44,402 bases of DNA, from assembly GCA_019118465.1 (NCBI GenBank), contig DWYX01000057.1, forward strand, positions 1 through 44,402, written 5' to 3'. The translations under genes and the position numbers were made by a program. Position 1 is the stretch's first letter; each line of letters begins with the position of its first letter. The stretch is from Candidatus Limosilactobacillus faecipullorum. GTDB taxonomy: Bacteria; Bacillota; Bacilli; Lactobacillales; Lactobacillaceae. Positions 3,045 to 42,540 of the stretch are shown in pieces. The notes under the pieces were generated by a model. The model made no database searches. It was not told the origin of the DNA and saw only the letters and a list, made by a program, of their open reading frames with translations.

Positions 3045-3342
3045 AAAAGGCTCCATCGGAATCGTATGATGATAAGAGAAAAGAATCGCGAACGCTGGCG
3101 CTAGCCAGGTTTGAGATTCTAGAGTACAGATCCCGAAGTGGAGCTGGATTACGTGGATACAAGGTTGATCTGCTAGCTAATCCATAACTCCTTGTATTGA
3201 ACCTATGATATAGAAAAGGTCGGGAGCAAACCTTCTCGACTACCTGGCAAGGCCAAGGAGGATCGTGCCGACTGGAGGGAAGGCAATATTCACTTAGCTA
3301 CTGCCTCAACCATAGTTTCTGTATGATGTTCGGAGGTACGAG
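3045..3342 (+). repeat. Interspersed intergenic repeat, copy downstream of alaS
   Basis: This noncoding stretch shares blocks with other gaps in the window. GATGATAAGAGAAAAGAATCG (3068 onward) recurs near 20706. The following hairpin CTGGCGCTAGCCAG recurs in altered form (CTGGCGTTAGCTAG) with wobble pairs keeping the stem. The block around 3265-3310 resembles the GTGCGACCGTTAGGGAAG...ATTCAGCTACTG block at 24986 and in the reverse complement near 29435. The end, TAGTTTCTG...TTCGGAGGTACGA, recurs near 16497. No protein frame is convincing. It may be a long 3' untranslated region of alaS or an independent element. Confidence 0.65.
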
Positions 3343-3385
3343 AGCGGCTGGAAAGAAACACAATTTTCTTTCCAGCCGCTTTTTT
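3343..3385 (+). terminator. Rho-independent terminator after the alaS repeat region
   Basis: AGCGGCTGGAAAGA pairs with TCTTTCCAGCCGCT across a short loop, followed by a run of T. It belongs to the recurrent GGCTGGGAAG-type terminator found after several genes in this window. Confidence 0.85.
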
Positions 3386-3440
3386 AATCAAAATAATAGA
3401 AAATCACCATAACAAGGACTAAATCCGGCATAATATGCGC

Positions 3441-3841
3441 TTGGCGAAACGTTGGCGGCACTTTACCAAAGGCTTCTATAGCTCAGTGGAGAGTGATGCC
3501 AATGAAAAAGGTTAGAAAATTATTGTGGCATGGACCTCCCACATTTTGGAAAGGAACAACCAATCATGTATCGGTACGATGCGTACCATCTCATCACTGA
3601 CCAAGCTAGTGACGATGCTTGGAAAGCTAACTAATCACAAGTACGATTCGTTGCTTGGGTTTGTACTCACGTTGCAGTATCACGGGTCTTTGTTTTATTA
3701 CCAAGTACGGCCCGCGTCGATAGAATTAGAGCAACAAAAACCGTCCGGAGTTTGGAGTCTCCGGACGGTTGCTAAAACAGATGTTTAAGCGCCGTCAATT
3801 TCTCGACGCAGCTACGGAGTTCCAGCTCTGTAGCCTTTTTC
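3441..3841 (+). ncRNA. Candidate structured noncoding RNA, unassigned
   Basis: About 400 bases with unusually dense pairing. The ends pair: GTTGGCGGCACTT (3451-3463) with AAGCGCCGTCAAT (3787-3799), 12 of 13 positions including wobbles. Inside are hairpins 3497-3503/3522-3530, 3573-3577/3583-3587, CCAAGC 3601-3606/GCTTGG 3617-3622, 3640-3646/3661-3667, and a very strong CCGTCCGGAG 3741-3750/CTCCGGACGG 3759-3768 extended by AGCAA/TTGCT. A terminator, GCTACGGAG 3811-3819/CTCTGTAGC 3826-3834 plus T run, closes it. A weak -10 (CATAAT 3429-3434) precedes it. I looked for RNase P, tmRNA and SRP signatures and did not find them. The only reading frame across it (3525-3788) overlaps the hairpins and has no recognisable protein. 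Function unknown. Confidence 0.5.
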
Positions 3842-3921
3842 TATTTCTAGTTATATTGGATTGTCAGTATTTTGCAATGACAACACAAAAAGTTTATTTA
3901 AGCCGAATTGAAGGCTGAAAA

Positions 3922-3950
3922 TTGTACTTTTAGGGTGGATAATGTAAAAT
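3922..3950 (+). promoter_or_regulatory. Promoter of the ireB-ruvX-DUF1292 operon
   Basis: TTGTAC at 3922-3927 and TAAAAT at 3945-3950 with a 17-base spacer, about 30 bases before the ireB ribosome binding site. Confidence 0.75.
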
Positions 3951-3982
3951 AGATAATTGATAAACTTGTGGAGGTGACCAAA

Positions 3983-4243
3983 ATGGCTAGCGATGAAACA
4001 ATGTTTTTTGATTTTGGTCAAAAGCATCAAAAAGACGTTAAGGAAACGTTGAAAACGGTATACGAAGCCTTAGAAGAAAAGGGCTATAATCCAATTAACC
4101 AAATCGTGGGGTATCTATTATCTGGGGATCCAGCTTACATTCCGCGGCTTAACAATGCTCGGAACTTAATCCGCCAACACGAACGTGATGAAATTATCGA
4201 AGAGCTGGTTAAGGATTACTTGAAGCGAAATGGTGAACACTAA
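3983..4243 (+). CDS. ireB: IreB family regulatory phosphoprotein (UPF0297, YrzL)
   Basis: Small cytosolic protein of 86 residues, typical of the family, with the conserved [10 protein letters not shown]-terminus and [19 protein letters not shown] core. In enterococci IreB is a substrate of the Ser/Thr kinase IreK and affects cephalosporin resistance; the function here is inferred from family membership. An in-frame GTG at 3968 exists, but GGAGGTGA at 3970-3977 is correctly spaced for ATG 3983, giving MASDETMFF. It is the first gene of a three-gene operon and its stop overlaps the ruvX start by one base, suggesting coupled translation. Confidence 0.95.
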
Positions 4244-4680
4244 TGCGGTTAATGGGTTTAGATGTCGGTTCAAAAACCGTGGGGATTGCCGAAAGTGACC
4301 CCTTAGGTTGGACGGCGCAAGGGATCGAAATCATTCCAATTGATGAAGACGAGGAAGTTTTTGGCCTTGATCGGGTAGCGGAACTAATGAAGGGCCGGCA
4401 GATTGCTGGCTTCGTGGTTGGCTTACCCAAAAATATGAATAATACGGAAGGTCCCCGGGTCGAAGCAGCCCGCCGTTATGGAGCAATGCTAGAAGAAAGG
4501 TTTGGGTTACCCGTTGACTACCAAGACGAACGGTTAACAACGGTCCAAGCTCACCGGATGTTGGTGGAAGAGGCCGACATTTCGCGACGGAAGCAAAAGA
4601 AAGTCATTGATGAATTAGCGGCGAGCTTGATTTTACAAAATTACCTTGACCGAAAGGGAAAATTAACCGCCAGATTGTGA
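4243..4680 (+). CDS. ruvX: Holliday junction resolvase-like RNase (YqgF/RuvX)
   Basis: RNase H-fold protein of 145 residues. The N-terminal [12 protein letters not shown] supplies the first acidic residue, [14 protein letters not shown] is the central family motif, YQDERLTT carries the conserved DER, and [15 protein letters not shown] near the C-terminus carries the last acidic residue. YqgF proteins are linked to pre-16S rRNA 5'-end maturation and are also annotated as putative Holliday junction resolvases. The ATG overlaps the ireB stop by one base. The alaS-ireB-ruvX-yrzB order is conserved in Bacillota and supports the call. Confidence 0.95.
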
Positions 4681-4689
4681 GGAAGAAAA

Positions 4690-5001
4690 ATGGCAGAAGA
4701 GATTAAACCAATTCAAGACGACGGCGAAGTGTTTACGCTCGTTGACGAAAAAGGCAATGAAGAACTTTATAAGGAAGCAATGCGCTTTCAAAACCCGGAA
4801 ACCGGTAAGTGGTACATTTGTCTTTACCCACTAGACCAAGAAAACGACGACGAAGTTGATATTCAAGCCTTCGCTTTCAATGAACCGGCAGATGATAGCG
4901 AAGAACTTCAACTGCTCCCGATTGAAAGTGATGAAGAATGGGACATGGTCCAAGAAGTAATGAACACCTTTATTGATGATGAAGGGAACTTGAACTTGTA
5001 A
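4690..5001 (+). CDS. DUF1292 protein (YrzB family)
   Basis: Acidic cytosolic protein of 103 residues, rich in Asp and Glu, with the family pattern of a short beta-rich domain (FTLVDEKGNEELYKEA, followed by YICLYPLDQE). It belongs to DUF1292, for which no firm function is known to me. It begins nine bases after the ruvX stop with a GAGGAAG ribosome binding site and is the last gene of the ireB operon; a terminator follows directly. Confidence 0.92.
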   Translation: MAEEIKPIQDDGEVFTLVDEKGNEELYKEAMRFQNPETGKWYICLYPLDQENDDEVDIQAFAFNEPADDSEELQLLPIESDEEWDMVQEVMNTFIDDEGNLNL

Positions 5002-5017
5002 TTTTAGATACTAAAAA

Positions 5018-5066
5018 GGCTGCCAATGTGAGGTTGGGTAAAACCTCTTGATTGGTAGCCTAAATT
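5018..5066. terminator. Bidirectional terminator between DUF1292 gene and rnhC
   Basis: GGCTGCCAAT (5018-5027) pairs with ATTGGTAGCC (5051-5060), with an inner GAGGTT/AACCTC stem; A run on one side and T run on the other serve the two convergent genes. Confidence 0.85.
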
Positions 5067-5078
5067 TTTAGTTTTAAT

Positions 5079-5975
5079 TTATTTAAGAGCTCGCTTAACT
5101 TTTTTCGTGTTAGCAAAGTGAAGTTTGGCGAAATGATCAAGATCCTTGCCGGCTTTAACCAGTTTAATCGCTACTTGGTCAACCGTGCTACCAGCTCCGA
5201 TGGGGAGGGTCATCCCGGCTTCATCAGAAAGGCGGTTCATGGTTGCAAGCGAGTAGGCCCGGGCAATAATTGAAGCAGCTGCGACAGCAACGTGATAACT
5301 TTCACCTTTTTCTTTGAAGTACACTTGATCTTTTAAGATCCGGTCCTGTCCCTTTAAATAGTTAAAGTAGGTCTTAGCCTGGACAAACTGATCGATGAGG
5401 ATTGAATCGGGTTTAGTGGGGGCAATTTTATCCAAGACTTTTAACAAAACAAAATTATGGCAGAGAGCCTTTAATTGAGCCTGATTGTATTGGTTAATTA
5501 AGCGGTTATAGTCATGCGGAGCAAGGTCTAAGACGTGGTAGGGACAACGTTGTTCGATGGCCTTTGCCAGTTCTAGAATCTTGGGGTCAGTTAGTTTTTT
5601 TGAATCTTTCACCCCAAGTTTGATGAGTTCATCAACTTGATCTGCTGGTACAAAAACGGCAGCGGTCGTTAAGGGACCAAAATAAGCACCAGTTCCGACT
5701 TCATCCGAGCCTAAAACGGCCAAGTGAGCAAAGTTAGCAGGAAGGTCGGATGCTACTTTCTTTGGTGAATGTGGCGTTGAATTGGTGCCCCAACGGCCGG
5801 CTTCTTTTTCTGCTAGCGGTCCTTGAAAGAGAACTTTGCCGGATTTGTATCCCGTGATCGTAACACCGGTAATCTTACTGGCGAAAACCGCCCCATTCGG
5901 GAGCTTGCGGTTAGCCGGGTAGGTTGCGGCTATTTCATCTAATTGGCTAGGAGTAACTTTGATAACAGCTTGCAT
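5079..5975 (-). CDS. rnhC: Ribonuclease HIII
   Basis: Type 2 RNase H that degrades the RNA strand of RNA-DNA hybrids. The 298-residue protein has the N-terminal TBP-like domain typical of RNase HIII (residues 1-80, basic and glycine-rich) and the catalytic core starting at GSDEVGTGAYFGP, where the DEVG supplies the first acidic residues. LIDQF and VAAASIIARA are further core motifs. The start has GAAAGG seven bases upstream. It is transcribed away from cvpA-mutS2, an arrangement common in lactobacilli. Confidence 0.96.
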   Translation of the reverse strand: MQAVIKVTPSQLDEIAATYPANRKLPNGAVFASKITGVTITGYKSGKVLFQGPLAEKEAGRWGTNSTPHSPKKVASDLPANFAHLAVLGSDEVGTGAYFGPLTTAAVFVPADQVDELIKLGVKDSKKLTDPKILELAKAIEQRCPYHVLDLAPHDYNRLINQYNQAQLKALCHNFVLLKVLDKIAPTKPDSILIDQFVQAKTYFNYLKGQDRILKDQVYFKEKGESYHVAVAAASIIARAYSLATMNRLSDEAGMTLPIGAGSTVDQVAIKLVKAGKDLDHFAKLHFANTKKVKRALK

Positions 5976-6001
5976 TTCAATTTCCTTTCACATTGAGAGT
6001 G

Positions 6002-6007
6002 TATAAT
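6002..6007 (+). promoter_or_regulatory. Likely -10 element for cvpA-mutS2
   Basis: TATAAT at 6002-6007 sits 32 bases before cvpA; the -35 region is weak. It lies next to the rnhC start, so the divergent promoters are very close. Confidence 0.5.
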
Positions 6008-6039
6008 TAATCTTACCAAATTTTCAAAGAGGATCGCTT

Positions 6040-6567
6040 ATGATTTTAACAACCGCCATCTTAGTGCTCCTGTTGGGCTGTTTTATTAATGGCAAGGAAC
6101 GGGGCTTAGTTCAAATCTTACTTTCAACCATCACCTATTTCTGTGGGTGGTTTTTAGCGCACTTTGCGGCGGAACCTTTAGGAAATGCCCTGGCTAGCAT
6201 GCTCCCAGCAATTGGTGACCATGGGAGTGCCGCTAGTTCTACTAGTCTAGTCACGACTAGTACCAATACTTTCTTTTACCATGGTATAGCCTTCATGGTG
6301 ATTTTTTGGGGGACTAGTTTTTTAGGCCGATGGTTGATGCGGACACTGCGGTTTATTAAGAAGGTTCCGGTGGTTGGCACCGTTAATCGTTATGGGGGCG
6401 CAGCTTTGAGCTTCTTAGTTGGTTACGTAATTATTTTTATGTTACTAGTAGTCTTTCAATACTTACCAGGAACCTGGTGGCAAAACCAATTGGCTGAATC
6501 AGGGCTTGCTCAGCTAATGATCCAAAAAACGCCTGGCCTAGCCCGGGCAGCTTTAAGTTGGCTGTAG
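6040..6567 (+). CDS. cvpA: CvpA family membrane protein
   Basis: Integral membrane protein of 175 residues with about four hydrophobic segments (residues 1-12, 22-42, 80-100, 125-145). GLVQILLSTITYFCGWFLA at the N-terminus and GAALSFLVGYVIIF near the third to fourth segment match the CvpA/colicin V production family. The true role in Bacillota is not settled. It is directly upstream of mutS2 (21 bases), a conserved pairing. The ribosome binding site is AGAGGAT. Confidence 0.88.
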   Translation: MILTTAILVLLLGCFINGKERGLVQILLSTITYFCGWFLAHFAAEPLGNALASMLPAIGDHGSAASSTSLVTTSTNTFFYHGIAFMVIFWGTSFLGRWLMRTLRFIKKVPVVGTVNRYGGAALSFLVGYVIIFMLLVVFQYLPGTWWQNQLAESGLAQLMIQKTPGLARAALSWL

Positions 6568-6588
6568 AACGATAGGGGGAGAAATTTG

Positions 6589-8961: not shown

Positions 8962-8986
8962 GACTTACAAAAAGTAGGCAGATTAT

Positions 8987-9014
8987 TTGAACTATCCCCT
9001 AAGTTTGCTAAAAT
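8987..9014 (+). promoter_or_regulatory. Promoter of trxA
   Basis: TTGAAC 8987-8992, 16-base spacer, TAAAAT 9009-9014 preceded by TGC (extended -10). This places transcription start near 9021 and excludes the in-frame ATG at 9013 as the trxA start. Confidence 0.75.
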
Positions 9015-9063
9015 GAGAACTATAGAATTAAAGACTTTTCGTTTAGTTAGAGGAGGAAATCGT

Positions 9064-9378: not shown

Positions 9379-9385
9379 TCGATGC

Positions 9386-9426: not shown

Positions 9427-9721
9427 ACTAAATATACATCACAAATTTTGCCTTAAATGATCAAAATCAATTTTGAGCACAGTTTACATTATTTGACTTG
9501 TAATGTTGAAACGTTATTTTTCATAAAGTTACAAAAATCATTTATAATGGGAATAACTTAATTTTGTAAGTGCAATCGGTTGCTTGAAATTAAAAAAAGA
9601 TTGTTTAGTGAGTCGCTTTCTTAAACTGACTTACTTAACTTCTTATAAAAAATGAACAAAGTGAGTTTTAGGAAGTGAAATTTGCTATAATCTTAGTTAT
9701 TAAAGGATGGGAGAGTGTCAA
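9427..9721 (+). promoter_or_regulatory. AT-rich upstream region of the EAL gene with promoter
   Basis: Nearly 300 bases without a gene. An extended -10, TGC plus TATAAT at 9686-9691, lies 30 bases before the EAL start. A second TATAAT occurs at 9543-9548 with only a weak -35. A short inverted pair (AGTGAGTC/GACTTACT-like, about 9607-9634) is visible. No repeat-family block is seen here. Confidence 0.5.
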
Positions 9722-10432
9722 ATGGGAAGTTCAATAAATGACCAACTAGTATTGTACTGTCAACCCATCTGTCGGATTGATAAGGCTCTTGGCCACCAAG
9801 TTACCGATTATGAGATTCTGCTTCGTGATAAGCATACAGGTGGTTTCCCGGCCCAGTTTTTCCAAGCTTTAAAAACTCAAGTCTCAGTTCGGAAGGAACT
9901 TGAAGACTGGATGATTGGCCAGTTAACTAATTTGACCCAACGTTGCGATGCTAATTTTGCAATTAATATTGATCCTTGGCAATTAGCATATTCAGATACT
10001 TGGAACTACTTAAAACGGTTGCGGGCAATTTCTTCCCGATTAATAATCGAAGTTACGGAACGGGTAGCGGAATTAAATAATCAAATCGATCAATTTTCTG
10101 ATTATATTGCTCGTTTACGAGAGCTTGGCTTTAAGATTTCCTTTGATGATGTTTCGAGTGGGCAATTTTCACTTCAAGTGGTAGCACAGAATATGGCTTA
10201 CATTGATCGGGCCAAAATTTCCTTAATCGATTTTCGAAACTTGTCACCAGACCAAATTAAAAAATTATTAAATCTATGGGCTAAATTTGCCGAATCAGTT
10301 AAACTTGAATTTGTGGTTGAAGGGATCGAAACGGAAGCAATTGCGGCCGAGTTAGTAAAGCAAAACTATGTCCTTCAGCAAGGCTACTACTGGCAAAAGC
10401 CATTTCCGGTGAGTCAATTAGTAGTTGCATAA
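9722..10432 (+). CDS. Stand-alone EAL domain protein (c-di-GMP phosphodiesterase-like)
   Basis: 236-residue cytosolic protein made of one EAL domain and nothing else. The signature EAL is EIL (residues 31-33, YEILLRD). Other positions are recognisable: NIDPWQL, IIEVTE, FDDVSSG with Asp142-Asp143, DRAKIS, VVEGIETE and QGYYWQKPF. The loop usually reading DFGTG is DVSSG, so hydrolysis of cyclic di-GMP is plausible but not certain; a regulatory role or other ligand is possible. There is no GGDEF protein in the window. ATG 9707 is rejected because AAAGG would abut it; ATG 9722 follows GGGAGAG. Confidence 0.85.
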   Translation: MGSSINDQLVLYCQPICRIDKALGHQVTDYEILLRDKHTGGFPAQFFQALKTQVSVRKELEDWMIGQLTNLTQRCDANFAINIDPWQLAYSDTWNYLKRLRAISSRLIIEVTERVAELNNQIDQFSDYIARLRELGFKISFDDVSSGQFSLQVVAQNMAYIDRAKISLIDFRNLSPDQIKKLLNLWAKFAESVKLEFVVEGIETEAIAAELVKQNYVLQQGYYWQKPFPVSQLVVA

Positions 10433-13431: not shown

Positions 13432-13502
13432 AATATGTAAAGAGGGTAGAAAGTAAGCTAAGTTGGTTAGCATACTCCAAGTCTGTTTCTTATAAATAAA
13501 TT

Positions 13503-13549
13503 AAGCGGAGTAAAGTTCGTGGATCGAATTTACTCCGCTTTTTCTTTTT
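13503..13549. terminator. Bidirectional terminator between ysnB and the metalloprotease gene
   Basis: AAGCGGAGTAAA (13503-13514) pairs with TTTACTCCGCTT (13529-13540), with an inner TTCG/CGAA stem and T run. Confidence 0.88.
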
Positions 13550-13584
13550 ACAAGACTACTTAATAGTTCACACTGACTTACTTC

Positions 13585-16382: not shown

Positions 16383-16527
16383 GTAGGGAGAAATATTTGG
16401 CGATGCAAAATTGAGGTCGTGGTTTGGCTCGAACTAGCCAACTTGCTTGGCGTTTGTGAGCCCACACAAGGCCAAGTAGGATAATGCCTCGATTGTAGTT
16501 TCTGTGTAATATTCGGAGGTACGAAAA
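16383..16527 (+). repeat. Interspersed intergenic repeat, short copy after the epimerase-like gene
   Basis: Contains the small hairpin block GCCAACTTGCTTGGCG (16437 onward), present in identical form near 24947, then GGCCAAGTAGGATAATGCC, related to 24611, and TAGTTTCTG...ATTCGGAGGTACGA, related to 3313. No coding potential. Confidence 0.65.
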
Positions 16528-16566
16528 AGGCTGGGAAGAAACACAAGTCTCTTCCCAGCCTCGTTC
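16528..16566. terminator. Terminator shared by the epimerase-like gene and the GtrA gene
   Basis: AGGCTGGGAAGA pairs with the CTTCCCAGCCT ending at 16561; same hairpin type as at 3343, 28212 and 37113. Confidence 0.85.
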
Positions 16567-16586
16567 TTTTGATCTTAGTATAGTCG

Positions 16587-20683: not shown

Positions 20684-20813
20684 AAATCTCTACCCGTAAT
20701 TACACGATGATAAGAGAAAAGAATCGTAAAAACTGGCGTTAGCTAGTCTCAAGGCGGTCTTACTTATCTCGAGTGCTAGCTTTTAAGCGCAAATGATTAT
20801 CTAAAATATCAGT
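20684..20813 (+). repeat. Interspersed intergenic repeat, partial copy after trxB
   Basis: GATGATAAGAGAAAAGAATCG (20707 onward) followed by the hairpin ACTGGCGTTAGCTAGT, matching the copy at 3068 with stem-preserving changes. The rest diverges. Confidence 0.6.
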
Positions 20814-24390: not shown

Positions 24391-24790
24391 GGATGGGAGG
24401 AAATCCTAGCCATTAGCCAGGGAACGTGGTGGAGAGCCTCAAAAGAGTCTCAAAACCCACTCTTGATGTAGGCTTACGTAGTTCGCTAACATCAATTTCG
24501 CCACTTCTGGCATGACTGGTTGATGACTTAAAATATAACTAAAAGGCCACTAATAAAGGTTAAGTTGCGGTGAGCTGGTGTCGTTCGTGAACCATTGCGA
24601 GGGCCAAGTAGGGTAGTACCGACTTCAAAGCAGACAATATCCACTTGGCTACTGTAGCCAAATTATCGTTAGCAGCTTGGCTAATCCGGCTCCATTAAGG
24701 AATCTTCCTCTAGATAAGAGCTACAACCTTGAATCTAACTAAAGTTAGCTTCCATGGTTGTTTACTTTTATCATCGTAAGATTCCTAGTG
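24391..24790 (+). repeat. Interspersed intergenic repeat, long mosaic copy upstream of the gluconate cassette
   Basis: Noncoding. It opens with a GGATGG...CCATTAGCCAGGGAACG block also at 39205 and 42236, then ACTCTTGATGTAGG...GCTAACATCAATTTC, a hairpin block also at 42411. GCCAAGTAGGGTAG...CCACTTGGC (24611-24649) is an inverted pair related to 3251 and 16480. The last part is a large hairpin: GGCTCCATTAAGGAATCTT (24689 onward) pairs with AAGATTCCTAGTGGAGCC (24778-24795) and ends in TTTTT, so it can terminate the upstream operon. Confidence 0.65.
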
Positions 24791-25118
24791 GAGCCTTTTT
24801 GCTTACGATGAGACCCAGCTTTGAAAAGTGAGTCGGCAAGAAAGCTTTCAAACGGTCCTATAAGATAAGGAACAGCCGGAGTGAAATTTGCAAAGCAAAT
24901 TTTCTCCGGCTGACTTATCTATAAGAACTGTGCTTAAAGAGAGCTAGCCAACTTGCTTGGCGTCCGCGAATCCATGTAAAGCTGGTGCGACCGTTAGGGA
25001 AGTGATTGCCATTCAGCTACAGCTTCTTGCCACGATATCTGAGTAATAGAGATGCTCTCAAAATCGCGTTGGCTAGGTTCCAACCTTCAAATTAGTGGCC
25101 TTGTTAGTTTCTTTCCAG
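24791..25118 (+). repeat. Left arm of an inverted repeat flanking the gluconate cassette
   Basis: About 330 bases whose reverse complement recurs at 29334-29674, roughly 80-85 percent identical by hand alignment, with an 11-base insertion in the right copy. It includes a strong hairpin CAGCCGGAG...CTCCGGCTG (24873-24912), GCCAACTTGCTTGGCG, GTGCGACCGTTAGGGAAG and CCAACCTTCAAATTAGTGGCC. A related copy in the same orientation lies at 42290-42510. Confidence 0.85.
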
Positions 25119-25179
25119 CATCTTAAAAAAATTTTAACCTCCATAAAATGTTGGTCTCATGCAATTTTTGTAACCGTTT

Positions 25180-26832: not shown

Positions 26833-28175
26833 ATGCCATTATTGATTGTTTTAATTGGGGTTGCTCTCTTAATCTTTATGATTATTAAGTTGAAGCTGAA
26901 CACCTTTGTTTCCTTGGTTGTTACATCCTTCTTAATTGCCTTAATGCTTCAAATTCCAATTGCCAAAATTCCAACAACGATTGAAACTGGGATTGGGGGT
27001 CAATTAGGTCACTTGGCTGTCATCTTTGGTTTTGGTTCCATGCTGGTCAACTTGTTTCCGACTCTGGTGGTGGATATCGGATCGCTACGACTTTGATTGA
27101 AAAGTTTGGGCGGCGTTGGATCCAAGTTGCCGTAATTTTAGCTTCCTTTATCATTGGGTTGTCCTTATTCTTTGAAGTTGGTTTGGTCGTTGTTCTTCCA
27201 ATTATCTTCATTATTGCCCGGGAAATGGACATGCCATTGATTTATCTGGGGATTCCAATGGCGGCAACTTTGAATGTTACCCACGCATTCTTGCCACCAC
27301 ACCCAGCGCCAACGGCAATTACAGATATCTTAGGGGCTAACTTAGGCCACGTTCTTTTACTTGGGATTATCGCAGCGATTCCAACGATTATTGTTGCCGG
27401 TCCGCTATACAACTACTGCTTACACAAGTTCTACCCAAAGGTTTACCGGAATAATATGGACATCTCGGTCTTAGGGGAATACAAGGAATTTAAGCTTGAA
27501 GAAACGCCTGGTTTTGGAATTTCTGTTTTAACGGCGATGTTACCGGTCATTTTGATCGCGGTCGCAACGATTTGTTCCTTTATTTTGCCAAAGGGTAACC
27601 CCGTTAATGAATTTATCCAATTTATTGGGGCACCGGATGCCGCAATGTTAATCTCGCTTCTGTTCGCCGTCTTTACAATGGGCTTGATGCGGAACAAGAA
27701 GATGGAAGAAATTTCCAACTCAATGGTCACTTCCGTTAAGCAAATTGCCATGATGCTCTTAATTATCGGTGGTGGGGGTGCCTTCAAACAAGTTTTGGTT
27801 GATGGAGGGATTTCCAAGTACGTTTCCGCTTTATTTGCTCACACCAGTTTGTCTCCAATCGTAGCCGCTTGGTTAATTACAGCCATTTTGCGGATTGCCT
27901 TAGGTTCATCAACCGTTTCTGCTATGACGGCTGCTGGTTTAATTGCGCCAATGGCTCACCAATTTGGGGCTAACTCCACGATGGCAGCCTTGATGGTTCT
28001 TGCCGTCGGTGCGGGTTCCGTCTTTGGTGGTCACGTTAACGACGCTGGTTTCTGGATGATTAAGGAATACTTTGGTTTATCGCTAAAAGAAAACTTCATT
28101 GCTTGGACAACCTTAACATGTGTGCTTGCTCTAGCTGGGTTAGCAACAGTCCTTATAATGGCAATGTTTGTATAA
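26833..28175 (+). pseudogene. gntP: Gluconate permease (GntP family), frameshifted
   Basis: Two adjoining frames together encode one 12- to 14-segment gluconate:H+ symporter of about 447 residues. The first frame (26833-27096) follows the family to GFGSML, then reads out of frame and stops; the second frame resumes as DSGGGYRIATTLIEKFG and runs to 28175. Adding a single G at about 27045 (CTGGTC to CTGGGTC) restores GSMLGQLVSDSGGG, the expected conserved region. No slippery heptamer is visible, so this is a true one-base deletion or a sequencing error. If real, the cassette lacks its own uptake. Good AAAGGAGG site before ATG 26833. Confidence 0.85.
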
Positions 28176-28211
28176 GATAATTTCTGGGTTAATTTCAGAG
28201 ATACGAATAAG

Positions 28212-28246
28212 GCTGGGAAGGCACAAAATTCCTTCTCAGCTTTTTT
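28212..28246 (+). terminator. Terminator after the gluconate permease gene
   Basis: GCTGGGAAGG (28212-28221) pairs with CCTTCTCAGC (28231-28240), then TTTTTT. It separates gntK-gntP from the regulator gene. Confidence 0.85.
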
Positions 28247-28316
28247 GAACTTGTTTTTTTAATTTCCTTGGGGGTATGATAATTGTTACTAGTTTGGAAA
28301 GCGAGAGAAGAGGTAA

Positions 28317-29324
28317 ATGCGGCAACACGTAACAATTAAAGATGTAGCGAAAGCGGCGGGCGTTTCGGTTACCACCGTTTCTCGGTATTTGAATGGTCGA
28401 TATGATCGGATGGGGAAGGAAACCAAAGAACGGATCACTACTACCATTAAAGAGTTAAATTATGCGCCAACAGCTTCTGCCCGACGATTACGCCAAAGTC
28501 AGAGTCATTTGGTAGGTTTGCTAGTGGGAAATATGGCTAATCCCTTTTCATCTTTGCTAGCGAAGGGGATTTACGATGTTTTACAACCAGCTGGTTATGA
28601 TGTTTTGTTAATGAATACCAACGATTCAGTGGCAAATGAGGCCCGGGCATTAGATCGGTTATATACCCAACAAGTAGATGGAATTATTGTGCAACCAAGT
28701 GCGGGGAAATTTAGTCAATTTCAGTCAGTAACTGATCATGAAATTCCCTTAGTCGTTGTTGACCGGGAAATTCATGATCAGCCAGCAACGGTGGGGAAGG
28801 TAACTAGTACTAACCAAACTGCCTGTTTTGACTTAGGAAAATACTTAGCTGAGCGGGGCTACCAGAATATTATTTCGGTAAGTGCTAGGTATGCGGAAGC
28901 TTCTGGCCAGATTCCCCGAATTGCGGGATTGAAAAAAGCGGCCGAACAAATTGGGTTTAATTACCTTAACATCGCAACTAAAAAGAGCGATACCGTTACC
29001 GACTTAGCACCGAAGATCAAACAATGGGTTCAAAGTTTGCGCGGAAAGACGGTCATCGTTTCGCTGATGGGCCCGATTCTATTTGATTTATTAGATGTTT
29101 TTAAAATGTTAAAGTGGCAATTTCCAGACGATGCTGGCCTCGTTAGTTTTGATGACTGGGCGTGGTCACGGTTTGTGGGAGATGGGATTTTTTTGGTTCA
29201 ACAAGATATGGAAACAATGGGCCAATTAGCTGCCCAAAAGTTACTCCAACAAGTTGAGACTGGGTCTGATCAATCTTGGCCAAGTTTTGTCCCAGTTAAG
29301 ATGGTGCCGGCACCGTCAATTTGA
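28317..29324 (+). CDS. LacI family transcriptional regulator of the gluconate cassette
   Basis: 335-residue repressor-type protein. The N-terminal helix-turn-helix is TIKDVAKAAGVSVTTVSRYLNG with hinge helix ASARRLRQ, followed by a periplasmic-binding-protein-like effector domain (VGLLVGNMANPFSSLLAKGI, DGIIVQPS, LVSFDDWAWS). Its position and the LacI-type palindrome before gntK point to control of the gluconate operon, with gluconate or 6-phosphogluconate as likely effector (inference). GAGAAGAGG precedes ATG 28317. Confidence 0.92.
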   Translation: MRQHVTIKDVAKAAGVSVTTVSRYLNGRYDRMGKETKERITTTIKELNYAPTASARRLRQSQSHLVGLLVGNMANPFSSLLAKGIYDVLQPAGYDVLLMNTNDSVANEARALDRLYTQQVDGIIVQPSAGKFSQFQSVTDHEIPLVVVDREIHDQPATVGKVTSTNQTACFDLGKYLAERGYQNIISVSARYAEASGQIPRIAGLKKAAEQIGFNYLNIATKKSDTVTDLAPKIKQWVQSLRGKTVIVSLMGPILFDLLDVFKMLKWQFPDDAGLVSFDDWAWSRFVGDGIFLVQQDMETMGQLAAQKLLQQVETGSDQSWPSFVPVKMVPAPSI

Positions 29325-29333
29325 TTAAAAAAT

Positions 29334-29674
29334 AGGTTGGGAAGAAACTACAAAGACCATTAATTTAAAGGTTGGAACGTAACCAACACAACTTTGAGAG
29401 TAGCTCTGTTAGACAACTATCGTGGCAAAAAGCAGTAGCTGAATGGCAGTTGCTTCCCTAACGGTCGCACCAACCTATTCAGCCTTGCATGGGTTTGCGG
29501 ACGCTAAACAAGTCGGCTAGCTCTCTTCAAGCACAATCCTTATAGATAAATCAGCCGGAGAAGATTTGTTTTGCAAATTTCACTCCGGCTGTTTTTTTAT
29601 CTCACAGGACAGTTTGAAAACTTTCTTGCTAATTCACTTTTCAAAGCTGGGTCTTATCGTAAGCAAAAAGGCTC
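29334..29674 (-). repeat. Right arm of the inverted repeat flanking the gluconate cassette
   Basis: Reverse complement of 24791-25118 with scattered substitutions and an extra 11 bases. Block order on the minus strand is the same as in the left arm. Confidence 0.85.
29552..29599 (+). terminator. Terminator within the right arm, after the LacI gene
   Basis: CAGCCGGAG (29552-29560) pairs with CTCCGGCTG (29583-29591), with an inner ATTTG/CAAAT stem, then seven T. The left copy has the hairpin but no T run in the matching direction. Confidence 0.8.
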
Positions 29675-31525: not shown

Positions 31526-31526
31526 A

Positions 31527-34736: not shown

Positions 34737-34778
34737 AGGTCGGGAAGAAGCTTTAATTTCTCCCTGACCTTATTTTTT
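34737..34778 (+). terminator. Terminator of the polyphosphate operon
   Basis: AGGTCGGGA (34737-34745) pairs with TCCCTGACCT (34761-34770, one bulged T), followed by TATTTTTT. Confidence 0.82.
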
Positions 34779-35980: not shown

Positions 35981-35989
35981 CGTTTTTCA

Positions 35990-36017: not shown

Positions 36018-36088
36018 AATGACACACATATTAAAATTTTCTAATTTGTTTATAATCAGAAAATTTAAAACTTGAAAGGATGATACAT

Positions 36089-37048: not shown

Positions 37049-37112
37049 GAAAAATCCTTTGTGGTCGTAGCTTAACTTGAGTTTCTGGGTAATATTTGAG
37101 TTAAAAAAATGA

Positions 37113-37155
37113 GAGGCTGGGGAGAAAGTCAACTTTCTTCCCAGCCTCGTTTTTG
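37113..37155. terminator. Bidirectional terminator between hicD and the DXS-like gene
   Basis: GAGGCTGG...GAAAG pairs with CTTTC...CCAGCCTC ending at 37148, followed by T residues; same hairpin type as at 16528. TTTCTGGGTAATATT just upstream (37082) resembles the tail of the interspersed repeats. Confidence 0.85.
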
Positions 37156-37195
37156 ATGTCCATAAGAATTGATTTATTGGTATTATATTGAGGTA

Positions 37196-38971
37196 CTATG
37201 AGTTAAGTTCAGCTAATTTTGCTTTAACGTCAGTAACGATTTGAGCTGGCGTCAAGTGGTAACGTTCGTAAAGGTCGGTAACTGGTACCACATCGGTGAA
37301 TTCTTTTTCGGCCCCAAAGTTAAGAACTGGGGTCCCAGTTGGTGCAACCAAGCGGTCGAGATGTTCACCAAAACCACCAGACATGGAAGCATCTTCCAAG
37401 GTAACGATCAAATCATGATTGTCAGCTACTTTTAAGAAGGTGTCTTTGTCTAAGGTGCTTGCTGAAACCGGATTAATCAAGGTAGCTGTAATTTTGTTCT
37501 TTGCCAATTCGGCAACGACCTTTTGACCTAAGGCGAAGAAGTCACCAAGACCAACAATGGCAACTTGATGACCAACTTGGGCAACTTGGGCCTTAATCGT
37601 TGAGTAATCATTCGTACTTGCGGCACCATGAACAACTGGACCAGCTGGTTCCCGGATAATTACTGGCTTGTCGGTTTGCTTCAATGCCCATTGCAACATT
37701 GAAACTAATTCTTCTGCATTCGTTGGTGCAAGGTATTCAATGTTTGGAATGTTGGAAAGCATTGCCAAGTCCCAGTCACCTTGGTGGGTACTGGATTGGT
37801 CAGAAATCATCCCGTTTTTAACAATCGTTACAACCGGGTAGTGGTTCAAAGCCATGTCGTGAATTACTTGGTCGTAAGCCCGTTGGAAGAAGGTGCTGTT
37901 TTGGAATAATACTGGCCGAGCGCCATTTTCAGCTAATCCGGTAGCGTAGGTTACGGAGTATTGTTCCGCAATATCAACGTCATCGTAGTTGTTTGGGTAC
38001 TTTTCCTTCATTTCATCAAGGCCAAAGACCCCAGGTACAGCTGCCGTAATGACCATCAATGGCTTACCAGCTTCAATTTGGTTACCAAGTTCATCCTTGA
38101 TAATTTGATCATAATTTTCAGTTGCAGTAGCGGGTGCTTTATCACTGCCGTCTTCAATCTTAAATGGAGAGTGCCAGTGCCAAGTTTCTTCATCCTTGAT
38201 GGCTGGTTCGTATCCCTTCCCCTTAAGGGTATTTACGTGAAGAACGATCGGGTGGTCAATCCCCTTAACGTCCTTAAGCGCATTGATCATCGTTTCAACG
38301 TCGTTTCCATCAGCAATGTAACGATAATCAAGCCCCATTGCTTTAAAGAGGTTATTTGGTGCTTCACCGTTGCTTTCCCGCAGGGTGGTTAATTGATCAA
38401 ACATCCCCCCATTAACGTCATCAATTGACATTTGGTTATCGTTAAAGATGATAATTAAATTACCATGGTACTTTCCGGCGTTGTTTAGACCTTCGAGGGC
38501 CATTCCGCCACTTAAAGAACCGTCACCGATGACCGCAACAATATCACCACTTTGGCCGGTTAAATCGCGGGCCTTTGCCATCCCAACAGCGAGGGCGACA
38601 GAAGTTGAGGTGTGACCAACCCGGTAAAAGTCGTGGGGGCTTTCATCTTGGTTGGAGTAAGGGGTGACATCATTGTAACGATCAGGATCTAAGAAACCAT
38701 AGGCCCGCCCAGTGAGCATTTTGTGAGGATAGGATTGGTGAGAAATGTCCCAAACCACCTTATCATGAGGGGAGTCAAAAACATAGTGGAAGGCCAACGT
38801 TGCTTCCACAATCCCCAGGTTTGGTCCTAAGTGACCACCAACGGCTGCATCCTTTTCAATCACCAAGTGACGAATTTCATCGGCAACTTGATGGAGTTGG
38901 TCAAGGGACAACTTTTTAACATCAGCTGGACCTTGGATCTTGTTCAGTAAGTAATCTGGATGTAAGTTCAC
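37196..38971 (-). CDS. DXS-like thiamine diphosphate enzyme
   Basis: 591-residue transketolase-type enzyme of the 1-deoxy-D-xylulose-5-phosphate synthase family. GGHLGPNLGIVE, GHTSTSVALAVGMA, the diphosphate motif GDGSLSGG...NNAG and IFNDNQMSIDD match DXS region by region but differ at residues normally constant (SSNLG to GPNLG, GALTGG to GSLSGG). No other methylerythritol pathway gene is in the window and lactobacilli normally use mevalonate, so the true product may be deoxyxylulose phosphate for thiamine or pyridoxal, or something else. GTG 38971 follows GAAGGAGGAA; a longer frame to 39022 has no better site. Confidence 0.85.
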   Translation of the reverse strand: MNLHPDYLLNKIQGPADVKKLSLDQLHQVADEIRHLVIEKDAAVGGHLGPNLGIVEATLAFHYVFDSPHDKVVWDISHQSYPHKMLTGRAYGFLDPDRYNDVTPYSNQDESPHDFYRVGHTSTSVALAVGMAKARDLTGQSGDIVAVIGDGSLSGGMALEGLNNAGKYHGNLIIIFNDNQMSIDDVNGGMFDQLTTLRESNGEAPNNLFKAMGLDYRYIADGNDVETMINALKDVKGIDHPIVLHVNTLKGKGYEPAIKDEETWHWHSPFKIEDGSDKAPATATENYDQIIKDELGNQIEAGKPLMVITAAVPGVFGLDEMKEKYPNNYDDVDIAEQYSVTYATGLAENGARPVLFQNSTFFQRAYDQVIHDMALNHYPVVTIVKNGMISDQSSTHQGDWDLAMLSNIPNIEYLAPTNAEELVSMLQWALKQTDKPVIIREPAGPVVHGAASTNDYSTIKAQVAQVGHQVAIVGLGDFFALGQKVVAELAKNKITATLINPVSASTLDKDTFLKVADNHDLIVTLEDASMSGGFGEHLDRLVAPTGTPVLNFGAEKEFTDVVPVTDLYERYHLTPAQIVTDVKAKLAELNS

Positions 38972-39014
38972 GAAGCTTCCTCCTTCACAATTAAACTTAA
39001 ACAACAAAAAAGTT

Positions 39015-39083
39015 CCTGTCAAACAGGATTATGACAAAAAGTAAGTACACTTATATTATAAGCAGTCTAAAATTGAAAACAAT
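39015..39083 (-). promoter_or_regulatory. Promoter and leader hairpin of the DXS-like gene
   Basis: On the minus strand TTGTTT (39083-39078), 16 bases, TATAAT (39061-39056). About 20 bases into the transcript, TCCTGT/ACAGGA (39029-39015) forms a six-pair hairpin followed by ACTTTTTTG, which looks like a small intrinsic terminator before the gene. No known riboswitch aptamer fits in this short leader. Confidence 0.55.
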
Positions 39084-39119
39084 CCGGTACATTTTTGAAC
39101 CTAGGGAACTAAAAGGTAA

Positions 39120-39273
39120 CCAAAATTAGGTAGGAAGAAAACTCATCGATGGCCTGAAAAGGATAACGAGAATAAAGGAGGATTTTGTGTAAAAATTAAA
39201 GAGGATGGAAGAAAAGTCTCAACCATTAGCTAGGGAACGCTAGAATGACTATTAAATAACCTTAATTATAACA
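39120..39273 (+). repeat. Interspersed intergenic repeat, partial copy near hxlR
   Basis: GGATGGAAGAAAAGTCT followed by CCATTAGCTAGGGAACG (39205-39239) matches blocks at 24391 and 42236. The rest of the gap shows no gene. Confidence 0.55.
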
Positions 39274-39338
39274 AAAAGGCCACTAAAGAAGGTTGAGTGT
39301 TGGCTGCGTTCCAACCTTCAAATTAGTGGCCTTAGTAG
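39274..39338 (-). terminator. Terminator of hxlR
   Basis: On the minus strand AAGGCCACTAA...GAAGGTTG pairs with CAACCTTC...TTAGTGGCCTT, followed by TTTTTG. The same CCAACCTTCAAATTAGTGGCC arm occurs in repeat copies at 25079 and, reverse complemented, 29350. Confidence 0.8.
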
Positions 39339-39347
39339 TTCACTTGT

Positions 39348-39809
39348 TTATCTTGCTTGATCTTCTTTATCAGCGTCTCGGAAATAGTCGGCTAAGTAGT
39401 CTAGACGGTGTTGCTTTTCCGCGATGACATCTGGGGTGGGTTCACAAGTCCGGTGGATAACTTCGTATTGGTCATTTCCATTGACAAAGCCCCATGCACA
39501 CATCATTTCAAGTAAGGGATAGAGAGTCATCCCGTGCTCCGTAACTTGGTATTGTACTTGCACAGGCGAAGTATTTAAAACCTGGCGATCAACAATCCCA
39601 TCGGCCATCAGTTCTTTAAGTTGAGCCGTTAACGTTTTTTTCGGGGCGGACTTTAAATAACGAAAAATAGCGGAATAACGTTGGGGACCAGCGTGCATTA
39701 AATAGTGCAAGATCAATGGTTTCCATTTACCACCAATCACTTGTAGGGTAATTGCCACTTCGCTTTGAACAGCTTTTTTAGGTGCCTTGTTGCTTGTCAA
39801 AGTTGTCAT
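39348..39809 (-). CDS. HxlR family winged-helix regulator
   Basis: 153-residue DNA-binding protein. VIGGKWKPLILHYLM and RYSAIFRYLKSAPKKTLTAQLKELMADGIVDR form the helix-turn-helix and wing of the MarR-like HxlR family. The N-terminal Cys used as redox or aldehyde sensor in HxlR and relatives is Ser here (VQSEVA); other cysteines are in MMCAWG and RTCEP. Target unknown; neighbours are the DXS-like gene (same strand, downstream) and tsaD. ATG 39809 abuts AAAGG, so TTG 39800 may be the actual start. Confidence 0.85.
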   Translation of the reverse strand: MTTLTSNKAPKKAVQSEVAITLQVIGGKWKPLILHYLMHAGPQRYSAIFRYLKSAPKKTLTAQLKELMADGIVDRQVLNTSPVQVQYQVTEHGMTLYPLLEMMCAWGFVNGNDQYEVIHRTCEPTPDVIAEKQHRLDYLADYFRDADKEDQAR

Positions 39810-39834
39810 CCTTTCTCTAAAGCAGTTAGGAAGA

Positions 39835-40872
39835 TTATAGGGTCAAATTAGTTGCCCGGTCAAATGACAAGCCAGGAACGGCATTTAAATCCCAGCTAGC
39901 TCGGTCGCCATGTTGGTAATTGACATATCCAGCGGCACCGATCATCGCTGCGTTATCACCACAAAGCTTTAAGGGTGCGAGGAGCAATTTAACTTCCGGA
40001 TGAAATTTGGCAAGATCTTTTTCAAGGCGGGCCCGGACACCGGAGTTAGCTGCTACCCCACCGGCAAGTACAAGTTGTTTTACTGGGTATTGATCAAGTG
40101 CCCGCATCGTTTTTTCGCCTAGAATATCAACGACGGCGGCTTGAAAACTAGCAGCGAGGTCATTCTTATTAAGTTCTTGCCCCCGTTGATGAGCGTTGTG
40201 GACGGTATTAATAAAAGCGGATTTTAAACCACTAAAGGAGAAATCGAGATTATCTTCTTGAACCATTGCCCGTGGAAATCTAAAGGTGTCATGGCCTTGA
40301 TGAGCCCATTCATCAACCGTTTTTCCAGCAGGATAGTTGATTCCTAATACTCGTCCAATTTTATCGTAAGCTTCACCAACGGCATCATCGCGGGTTTCAC
40401 CGATAATTTCATATTCGTGTTCGGCTTTCATATAAACAAGTTCGGTATGCCCGCCAGAAACTAAAAGGGCCATCATTGGGTAAGTAAATTCACCAACATA
40501 CCGGGCCGCATAAATGTGGCCGACCATGTGGTTAACTGGAATTAATGGTAAGTGGTGCGCCCAAGCAATGACCTTCGCCGCCGTAACCCCGATTAAGAGG
40601 GAGCCGACTAGACCAGGACCGTAAGTTACTGCTACTCCTGCTAATTGATCATAGGTCACGTCCGCTTCAGTCAAGGCTTCATTGGTGCACTTAGTAATTT
40701 GTTCGATATGGTGGCGACTAGCGACTTCGGGAACGACGCCACCGAACCGTTGGTGACTAGCGATTTGAGTGGCAACAATATTACTTAGGATCTTAGTCCC
40801 GTTTTCAATAACAGCCACACTGGTTTCGTCACAACTACTTTCAAAAGCTAAAATATAGGTTGGTTCTACCAT
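39835..40872 (-). CDS. tsaD: tRNA N6-adenosine threonylcarbamoyltransferase
   Basis: 345-residue ASKHA-fold enzyme that, with TsaB and TsaE, transfers threonylcarbamoyl to A37 of ANN-decoding tRNAs. [11 protein letters not shown] is the phosphate motif, [12 protein letters not shown] holds the metal-binding His pair, [11 protein letters not shown] and [12 protein letters not shown] are further conserved blocks. It lies two bases downstream of rimI on the same strand and ends the tsaB-rimI-tsaD operon. AAAGGA precedes ATG. Confidence 0.97.
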
Positions 40873-40873
40873 A

Positions 40874-41434
40874 TTAATATCCTTTCAATTTTAGGTTGTT
40901 CACCATCGTATAGGCATCTTCGCCATCTTCAATATAGTAATGATGACGGGTACCTTGGATTTTGAAGCCAAAGTGTTCATAAAGATGTTGCGCAGTTAAA
41001 TTACTAGCGCGCACTTCCAAACTCATTGTTAATAAGTGCTGGCCAATGGCAACTTGCATTAGTGAACGTAAAAGAGCGGAGGCTAAGCCGCGTTGCTGAA
41101 AAGCGGGGTGGGTAGCAACGTTAGTTAGGTGAGCGTCTTTAGCTGCATAGTTAACTGCCATTCCCGCATAAGCTAGGACGGTATCATGGTCTTTGGCTAC
41201 TAAATACAAGCAATTTGGCCGGTGTAAATCATAATAAAAGGCAGTCTCATCCCATGGTGGAATGTGATAGATAAGACGTTCAATTTCAACAAGTTCGGGA
41301 ACTTCGACTTCTGTTACTTGGGAAATCAAATATGGCCGTTGATTAATTACGATTGTTCGGGGTGTAAACTGCAAGTGATTTTCATACTGCATCCCAAAGT
41401 AAACTTTTAGCCAAGAGTTAAACTTCTTTAACAT
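40874..41434 (-). CDS. rimI: Ribosomal protein alanine N-acetyltransferase-like GNAT protein
   Basis: 186-residue GNAT acetyltransferase. The acetyl-CoA loop is [13 protein letters not shown], followed by [19 protein letters not shown] as in RimI, which acetylates ribosomal protein S18. An N-terminal extension of about 40 residues ([13 protein letters not shown]...) is longer than E. coli RimI. ATG 41434 lies within the last codons of tsaB (17-base overlap) and has AAGGA nearby; the much longer possible frame to 41521 overlaps tsaB needlessly. Confidence 0.9.
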
Positions 41435-42137
41435 ATTCAATCGGTCCTTGGTTAGGATGGGTCTTTTGCCAATTAGCTTCAGCTTCGGTAATCCGTAAGT
41501 AGGTCGGGATAAAGTGATCAATGTCAGAAACTGGTTGAGCTTTGGCGCCTAATTTGGCTAAGGCAAAGGTTGATACCATCGCCGCCGATTGGATTACTTG
41601 AACATTGGCAGGTAAATTAGGAACGGCAGCCTGGAGCTTTTTAGTTAGTTCACCAAGTAAGTATACCGGTTCGTTGCTTGGCAATTGGTCAACTAAATCT
41701 TCAAAGGTAAGGTGACCATCGGGTAAGACATTAATTAATAGATGATCTTGATAGCGATATTCTCCCGCAAAAACATTGCCTCGGCGGGCATCAAAGAAAG
41801 GTACTAACAGCGCATCGGTTACCGATGGAATTCCTGCGGCGACGGTTTCAAGACTTGAGATCCCAACTAAATCAATGCCTAAAGTCATCGCTAAAGTTTT
41901 TGCAGTGGTGACGGCGATCCGGATTCCAGTATAAGAACCGGGCCCTTTGGCTACTACCACTCGATCGAGATCTTCAGGTTTCCAATTAACCCGGTGCATT
42001 AATTCATCAATCGTTGGGAGAACATAGATACTATGGTTTCTAACAGTATTCAAAGTCGTAGTCGCCTTTAGTTGGTCATCTTCGACCAAGGCAATGCTCA
42101 TGGGATGATTTGAAGTATCAAGTGCCAAAATCTTCAT
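41418..42137 (-). CDS. tsaB: tRNA threonylcarbamoyladenosine biosynthesis protein TsaB
   Basis: 239-residue TsaD paralogue that dimerises with TsaD and is needed for t6A formation. ILALDTSNHPMSIALV at the N-terminus and VAKGPGSYTGIRIAVTTAKTLA in the middle are family signatures. It is first in tsaB-rimI-tsaD, a common Bacillota order, with overlapping ends to rimI. AAAGGATGG precedes ATG. Confidence 0.96.
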   Translation of the reverse strand: MKILALDTSNHPMSIALVEDDQLKATTTLNTVRNHSIYVLPTIDELMHRVNWKPEDLDRVVVAKGPGSYTGIRIAVTTAKTLAMTLGIDLVGISSLETVAAGIPSVTDALLVPFFDARRGNVFAGEYRYQDHLLINVLPDGHLTFEDLVDQLPSNEPVYLLGELTKKLQAAVPNLPANVQVIQSAAMVSTFALAKLGAKAQPVSDIDHFIPTYLRITEAEANWQKTHPNQGPIEYVKEV

Positions 42138-42199
42138 TATTATTCCATCCTTTCGTGTTACAACTTCTTATCTTAACACAATGTTAATGCAGGTGAGTG

Positions 42200-42540
42200 A
42201 GGTGGTCGGGTTTTTAAGTAATATTCGAAGGCTGAGGATGGTGAAAAGTTCTATCCATTAACAAGGGAAGCTTGGAGCAAATCAGCCAACTTACTTGGTG
42301 TCTGTGCCATACAAGACTGAATAAGTTGGTGCGACTGGTTAGGGAAGCAACTGCCATTCGGTTACGGTTGTGAAGTTGATTTTGAGCCTCTATTGAATCT
42401 CAAAAATCACTCTTGATGTAAGCTCATTTCATTAGCTAACATCAATTTCAAAGTTGTGTCGGCTACATTCTAACCTTTAAATTAGTGGCTAAATTAGTGG
42501 CTTTAGTGGTTGTTCAGTCTCTCTCCAAATGTTATACAGA
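42200..42540 (+). repeat. Interspersed intergenic repeat, copy between tsaB and the permease gene
   Basis: Blocks in order: GGATGG...CCATTAACAAGGGAAG, GCCAACTTACTTGGTG, TGGTGCGACTGGTTAGGGAAG...CTGCCATTCGGTTACGG, ACTCTTGATGTAAG...GCTAACATCAATTTC and CTAACCTTTAAATTAGTGGC. These occur in the same orientation in the left arm of the gluconate repeat and at 24391. No gene is seen in the 450-base gap. Confidence 0.7.

Follow-up and report, generated by a model that had tools for sequence, protein, structure and literature searches.

The window, that is, the whole stretch of 44,402 nucleotides (nt) analysed here, covers positions 1-44402 of contig DWYX01000057.1 (C32) in the 1.52-Mb draft genome of Candidatus Limosilactobacillus faecipullorum, which is 88% complete. 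Its AlaRS showed 98% identity (best segment) to that of Limosilactobacillus alvi An810, the top of the 47 loci found, and the window shares 84-90% nucleotide identity with L. alvi over long common stretches. An initial annotation had described a family of hairpin-rich repeats in seven long intergenic gaps of this DNA. All seven were found to be real and to contain the blocks named, and the block profiles also bore out the statement that block combinations differ between copies. The copy list was incomplete, since it missed 28171-28247 and 37072-37152 as well as the hairpins at 34737-34777 and 13464-13551, and the copy at 29334-29674 could now be assigned to the minus strand.

Analysis of the genome revealed that these repeats comprise three interlocking hairpin elements, designated A, B, and C. 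Type A consists of blocks A1-A2-A4-A6b-A10 in fixed order with optional inserts. Type B reads B3-core-B5-B6 with a terminator at its end, and it is made up of a long hairpin with a bulge, then a linker that is conserved, and in most cases the terminator. Type C (block B1) is a single long hairpin with the ends AATCC[G/A]GCTCC...GGAGCCTTTTT or similar. Block order is mostly preserved in types A and B. The features of the window are as follows, in which R1 denotes a model of linker plus terminator built from 26 sequences.

3045-3151, plus strand: type C hairpin (AAAAGGCTCC...GGAGCTGGATT), immediately downstream of the alaS stop codon.
3205-3387, plus strand: type B element whose core is short, followed by linker and terminator; matched at 3306-3383 by the linker-terminator model (one of its training sequences).
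13464-13551, plus strand: terminator hairpin resembling block A7, located in a convergent gap.
16400-16575, plus strand: type B element with core hairpins, linker, and terminator; R1 match at 16489-16566 with 97.9 bits (an R1 training sequence).
20684-20790, plus strand: degraded type C element just after a Pyr_redox_2 gene.
24391-25125, plus strand: longest type A element of the window, a single branched hairpin of 735 nt with a minimum free energy (MFE) of -261.5 kcal/mol and an outer stem of terminator type.
24683-24800, plus strand: type C element in the apical loop of hairpin P4 of the type A element at 24391-25125; ends AATCC...TTTTT.
28171-28247, plus strand: type B linker and terminator without the long hairpin (49.9 bits).
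29318-29674, minus strand: right part of a type A element (blocks A6b to A10), from genome matches and block profiles.
34737-34777, plus strand: terminator hairpin of the same sequence type as the repeat family, from block profiles.
37072-37152, plus strand: type B linker and terminator (71.5 bits; an R1 training sequence).
39190-39345, plus strand: minimal type A element with outer arm, start of A1, and a self-closed A2/A10 stem, from block profiles.
42272-42500, plus strand: composite of type B core, A1 hairpin, and A10.

When folding was compared with that of shuffled sequences, the element at 24391-25125 gave a z score of -8.9 (20 shuffles only), followed by 3045-3387 (-6.4), 16400-16575 (-5.9), and the minus strand of 29318-29674 (-4.0). 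The composite region at 42200-42520 folded no better than shuffles (z score of -1.4; 9 of 100 shuffles equally good).

The family is abundant in this genome. With the gap at 24391-25118 as the query, 79 matches were obtained in the own genome at E ≤ 1e-3, the best paralogue at 7.5e-99, while the gap at 3044-3436 yielded 37. We then surveyed 683,065 bases, consisting of the window and 39 stretches around own-genome matches; as these stretches were picked for matches, repeat densities in them are not genome averages. Self-comparison of the survey yielded 113 repeated clusters, of which 101 are non-coding and some are overlapping contig ends. Profiles of 20 blocks, of which B2 matched itself alone, defined 101 loci in these 683 kb, some of them short and weak. 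Thus, the further copies that the initial annotation proposed to look for are numerous, and its reading as an element like a repetitive extragenic palindrome (REP) or a miniature inverted-repeat transposable element (MITE) holds to the extent that own-genome and genus-wide matches establish an interspersed repeat family.

The positions of the repeats relative to genes were determined with simple open reading frames (ORFs) of at least 100 codons rather than an annotation, for gaps of at least 30 nt and repeat loci of at least 60 nt; 185 shorter gaps were excluded. Repeats occur in 37 of 79 convergent gaps and 40 of 222 tandem gaps, versus 1 of 71 divergent gaps, in agreement with the earlier statement that most copies lie downstream of genes. 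In tandem gaps, the median distance was 17.5 nt from the upstream stop codon and 142.5 nt to the downstream start codon, and 35 of the 40 copies are closer to the 3′ end of the upstream gene. Of 14 informative standalone type C elements, 13 point their T-run end towards the stop codon, and two others are convergent on both sides. In other genomes, we inspected 58 high-scoring loci, picked by score and including two orthologous pairs. An upstream ORF is present at 56 of them and co-oriented at 47, for which the median distance from stop codon to hairpin is 14 nt; 30 of the 58 loci are convergent and 2 divergent.

The alaS gap could be followed across species. L. alvi carries a type B element after alaS whose core differs from that of the window, and its alaS gap has no type C match. 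In L. kribbianus, the type B element at this place is complete, its hairpin starting 13 nt past the stop codon. As judged by eye and unscored, a simple hairpin takes its place in most of the 33 alaS gaps printed. Model R3 (described below) matches 3 of 47 alaS neighbourhoods, those of L. kribbianus, L. alvi (partly), and L. viscerum (elsewhere in the locus). No clean empty site was found among the sites compared: the L. alvi alaS site has another core and a rearranged upstream side, and the gap after the gene at 9707-10432 is not alignable. Separately, a comparison of L041 9646-9750 with window positions 1-142 showed that the similarity between L. alvi and the window stops upstream of alaS, beside a type C element in L. 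alvi.

The first DNA query appeared to confine the repeats to their own genome among 50 of the genus, but this was a limit of the query, since a type B query and models matched other genomes. The type B query hit 17 of the 50 genomes including the own one, elsewhere chiefly through linker and terminator. R1 matched 34 of the 50, with 92 matches in the own genome; because R1 contains the terminator, its weak matches may be terminators only. Upstream of linker-terminator matches in other species lies a long hairpin homologous to the B core. Model R2, composed of hairpin and linker without the terminator (14 sequences), was found in 32 of the 50 genus genomes (28 of the 41 good ones), with 32 matches in the own genome and at least 65 copies in genome G012, where all 65 scored candidates matched. 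In a family sample with 10 candidates scored per genome, R2 matched 24 of 301 genomes, 13 of these outside the genus. For the broader model R3, built from 32 sequences, 7 candidates were scored in each of 395 genomes sampled from the order. At E ≤ 1e-4 it matched 39 of them, which belong to 19 of the 80 genera, and 9 of the 39 lie outside the family. Matches outside the family are weaker, and the 13 loci inspected from 6 such genomes fold alike. These data indicated that type B is not local but spread over genus and order.

In most copies seen, type B spans about 180-190 nt with a long hairpin and a terminator; the usual second hairpin is missing in L282 and L331. The linker is among the best conserved stretches, with bases conserved across genera, and is unpaired in the consensus. 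By eye, L336 and L263, from genomes outside the genus, carry near-perfect hairpins of the same element type. At L230 10-514 in G012, three extra weak R2 matches fall in a GC-rich stretch upstream of the element, which could be further hairpins or coding sequence.

No known RNA family accounts for the element in Rfam, which gave 0 matches above the gathering threshold in the window. In 33 loci of relatives, no family reached the threshold on the element; tRNA, 16S, and L21 leader matches lie elsewhere, T-box matches stay below gathering, including one that crosses the L262 element in antisense, and one weak plastid match lies on a tRNA. Two candidates were rejected. A T-box resemblance seen by eye was unsupported by Rfam on the window, and the Enterococcus small RNA sRNA_1300 (RF02862) matched the window weakly, was not found in this genome, and occurs with 1-2 matches per genome in 35 of 395 order genomes. 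A type A gap query matched nothing in a phage collection or a plasmid collection, elements of three other genomes matched nothing in the plasmid collection, and the linker pattern had no match in viral contigs. The element of G190 matches one record of the plasmid collection, the 592-kb Aerococcus tenax CP127381.1, at three places (257977-258142).

Next, we analysed base-pair conservation in the alignments. In the R2 alignment (27 pairs, 14 sequences), 95.1% of the cells were paired, versus 77.5% in shuffles and at most 53% in slid controls, and in the R3 alignment (38 pairs, 32 sequences) the values were 91.1%, 69.0%, and at most 47.6%; structures derived from the same alignments are favoured over slid versions, and shuffle controls do not correct for relatedness. 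Two-sided cells numbered 69 versus 25.2 in shuffles for R2 and 266 versus 83.6 for R3, in which 33 of the 38 pairs vary on both sides. In the own genome, 27 two-sided cells versus 4.2 in shuffles were counted for the linker-terminator, using 38 of 76 matches (the rest being short, repeated, or on the other strand of the palindrome), and 27 versus 10.3 for the core hairpin, using 26 of 30 matches; the pair types of the core hairpin were not above shuffles (21 versus 19.7). Random drift, against which the initial annotation had set its covariance check, is thus not what is seen. Its remark that stems keep pairing despite base changes stands for the many copies with two-sided changes but not for the pair that it cited, 3095 versus 20727, which changes on one side only, from G-C to G-U.

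The covariation is strand asymmetric. In the long hairpin, G-U pairs exceeded A-C pairs by 130 to 23 in the R3 set and by 40 to 9 in the R2 set. As structure prediction itself favours G-U, we repeated it on the reverse complement, and for pairs predicted from both strands the counts were 50 versus 20 (R3 set) and 7 versus 1 (R2 set). The MFE of the sense strand was lower in 31 of 32 sequences of the R3 set and in all 13 of the R2 set (one sequence with N excluded); the same held in the own genome for 19 of 26 core and 28 of 38 linker-terminator sequences. From these sequence and folding data, the transcribed strand of the long hairpin is read as being under selection and the terminator as being used from both sides. 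The asymmetry argues for maintenance of the long hairpin in RNA form at the ends of mRNAs, and, together with the location at gene 3′ ends and the usual terminator, it is in line with the second option offered by the initial annotation, a 3′ RNA module that would be transcribed.

Comparison of copies showed how modules are exchanged. Gapped alignments between loci, 254 in number and covering 97 distinct sites, yielded 160 distinct inserted segments in 44 loci. Compared with length-matched random segments, the inserted segments break fewer base pairs (16.8 versus 27.9 crossing bases; mean rank per locus 0.29, p = 8e-7). Hence the modules gained or lost between copies are closed helices.

Nesting of C in hairpin P4 of A follows a fixed junction. 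All 5 filled sites that could be read have C exactly between the loop and the 3′ arm of P4, and the P4 hairpin is empty, with a loop of 7-8 nt, at 15 distinct loci. Two more P4 sites lack a readable 3′ arm (L119 at 5818, with the start of C present, and L126). Four more C copies, some incomplete, were read by eye in another hairpin of A, of which the automatic table scored 2 as filled. The sequences flanking A in turn look like the arms of the B6 terminator. On the right side, at least 12 of 15 positions agree in 10 of 23 flanks (99th percentile of the null, 10; p = 2e-10), and left flanks also match (p = 5e-7; 16 copies). Single striking cases of pairing between flanks (L330, L332, L298, and L347) were not taken as proof.

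Several further arrangements were observed. Blocks A7-A9 at L122 9895-10030, L129 16257-16392, and L130 9220-9359 match the type B model over its full length with 47.9-55.1 bits, suggesting a B-type hairpin nested inside A. Two alternative forms of the element, with or without a CGACGCGGAGC-AGCCTATT module, occur in several genomes (L214, L216, L228, and L229 versus L215 and L218), and at L219 barely more than the outer stem remains.

Copies are more alike within genomes than between them. A set of 54 elements clustered by genome or by very close species, with a mean identity of 0.73-0.99 within genomes versus 0.63 between genomes. In G005, identical 138-nt copies lie at different loci (L218/L269 and L215/L270), and five copies of G408 are near-identical by eye. 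This clustering fits bursts of mobility or gene conversion. We searched for a mobilising enzyme in three families. Neither reverse transcriptase (RVT_1) nor IS110 was found in the genome (assembly 88% complete), and a group II intron or retron origin was rejected given the lack of RVT_1 in that assembly. Four Y1 transposase matches were detected (L156-L159), and none of the repeat blocks is present in these loci. The best of them, L156 61-1911, carries tnpA (142 amino acids, Y1_Tnp match) beside an ORF of 473 amino acids that is tnpB-like by eye, and is thus probably an IS605-type element. The search therefore gave no parent insertion sequence (IS) among these three families, other transposase families not having been searched, and to that extent the known IS-derived MITE that the initial annotation had considered, whose terminal inverted repeats would be shared with an autonomous IS of the genome, did not turn up.

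In addition, window positions 44269-44402 and the contig ends in L123, L129, L131, L132, L135, L137, L143, L145, L149, L151, and L153 have common repeats of about 128-134 nt, which are probably assembly overlaps at a multicopy element.

Variable module assembly, as seen here, is also a feature of EFAR, which Venditti et al. reportedly described in 2007. EFAR elements are said to measure 42-650 bp, to be variable assemblies of 16 sequence types, and to use stem-loops as targets, inserting into them so that parts of the target stem are retained at both ends. Efa-1 of Enterococcus faecalis is described as an intergenic element of 163 nt with 65 copies and a pair of adjacent stem-loop structures (SLSs) (PMC2267715). 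On that description, type B resembles it in being intergenic, in its long hairpin with mostly a terminator, and in reaching tens of copies in many genomes. Among the titles and abstracts searched, Efa-1 was the nearest published description. Our guess is that Efa-1 and EFAR are one and the same, and type B is perhaps related to them. The likeness is one of description only, and the spread over genera, the stop codon spacing, and the sense-strand bias are findings on type B.

Other systems share single traits with these repeats. BOX, RUP, and SPRITE of Streptococcus pneumoniae form hairpins and favour convergent gaps, BOX being modular and SPRITE terminator-like (PMC3049150). The hairpins, the modularity (of BOX), and the convergent-gap preference are shared with our repeats; BOX, which has boxA, boxB, and boxC modules, terminal inverted repeats, and target duplication, varies mainly in boxB number, whereas the repeats here swap modules and nest them in loops, as compared by description rather than sequence. 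Such elements are also described as inserting into one another (PMC10969869). REPs and bacterial interspersed mosaic elements (BIMEs) are likewise palindromic and extragenic, but REPs are given as 20-40 bp (PMC3733652), whereas our repeats reach 735 nt. In REP-associated tyrosine transposase (RAYT) systems, a RAYT-type Y1 transposase is flanked by REPs; the Y1 locus at L156 has a tnpB-like ORF beside tnpA. The second hairpin of type B resembles an intrinsic terminator, a GC-rich hairpin with a T run near gene 3′ ends, yet it is preceded by a much larger conserved hairpin and a linker. Within the titles and abstracts of the open-access literature searched, no such repeat was described for Limosilactobacillus, and neither the order-wide spread nor the stop codon spacing nor the strand asymmetry was met.

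Taken together, we consider it fairly probable that the repeats are copies of a portable 3′ untranslated region (3′-UTR)/terminator RNA element of Lactobacillales that has been re-modelled in this lineage by hairpin exchange. The ancestral form would be type B, which starts about 14 nt after the stop codon, often with a GAGA motif, and continues with a long hairpin bulged on the 5′ side, a conserved unpaired linker (approximately CGTTT.CTGTGTAATATTCGGAGATA), and usually an intrinsic terminator. Upon transcription from the preceding gene, the element would form the 3′ end of the mRNA. Its terminator would stop transcription, in convergent gaps from the other side too, and the long hairpin would probably block 3′-5′ exonucleases and so may stabilise the mRNA. 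In the lineage of the window, whole helices would have been swapped, lost, or inserted, with element C entering loops of A and A coming to lie inside terminator-type hairpins; the copies may have moved by non-autonomous transposition or gene conversion.

Several results weigh against this reading. The R2 alignment contains no more further pair types than shuffles do (59 of 500 equally high), the terminator shows no G-U excess (G-U versus A-C, 12 versus 10 and 11 versus 12), and the wobble bias of the own-genome core hairpin is gone when counted on both-strand pairs (14 versus 14). With respect to the nearest gene, only C is biased in orientation in the surveyed genome (13 versus 1), neither type A (7 versus 11) nor type B (15 versus 8) being significantly so, and 18 of the 50 genus genomes are without an R2 match. 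As to module exchange, the loop depth of insertion sites is the same as that of random positions in the same hairpin-rich sequence (p = 0.67). The two flanks of a locus pair with each other only marginally in the own genome (type A copies, n = 12, p = 0.043) and not significantly across 76 loci elsewhere (p = 0.24). Finally, some very close species share copies as alike (0.91-0.99) as within-genome ones, in an identity comparison that drew on high-scoring loci.

The strongest rival is that the repeats are purely parasitic, non-autonomous mobile palindromes such as BOX, RUP, and EFAR, tolerated only behind genes. In this view, pairing would persist either because mobility requires the palindrome or because template switching from one arm to the other repairs it. 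The identical G005 copies, the near-identical G408 copies, the genome-specific clades, and the ends of the C element, which stay the same from host to host, all speak for it, as does the convergent-gap preference of BOX, RUP, and SPRITE (PMC3049150). Yet strand-asymmetric wobbles and sense-strand stability are unexpected for a palindrome maintained at the DNA level, the linker keeps its bases from genus to genus, copies sit at a tight distance from stop codons, and no parent transposase was found among the three families searched; we therefore regard it as unlikely. Very unlikely, in our view, is a trans-acting or protein-binding 3′-UTR RNA, for instance, a sponge or a small RNA processed from mRNA 3′ ends: the unpaired, well-conserved linker could be its working part, but tens of copies would be unusual for a regulator, and no target or protein is known. 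Least credible of all is that these are ordinary intrinsic terminators, alike through similar terminator sequences in lactobacilli, for even though one part is a normal terminator hairpin with a T run and simple hairpins fill most alaS gaps, the long hairpin and linker lie outside it and are recognised alone by the terminator-free R2, which contradicts this explanation; E values between copies of down to 7.5e-99 and the largely kept block order of types A and B also speak against it.

Interspersed bacterial palindromes have often been treated as parasitic DNA. The reading as a 3′-UTR/terminator element allows a wider proposal, which we offer tentatively as a possible one: a hitherto unclassified structured RNA of Lactobacillales may provide mRNAs with a portable 3′ end. 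It would follow stop codons at a distance of about 14 nt, occur in tens of copies per genome in many species, be selected as sense RNA and homogenised within species, and grow by the insertion of hairpin modules into its own loops. With one element traceable over many genera by a covariance model, the old question of parasite versus part of the transcript becomes testable in lactobacilli, which are harmless and tractable. The lineage of the window also provides a natural series that starts with a simple element of two hairpins and reaches 735 nt of nested hairpins.

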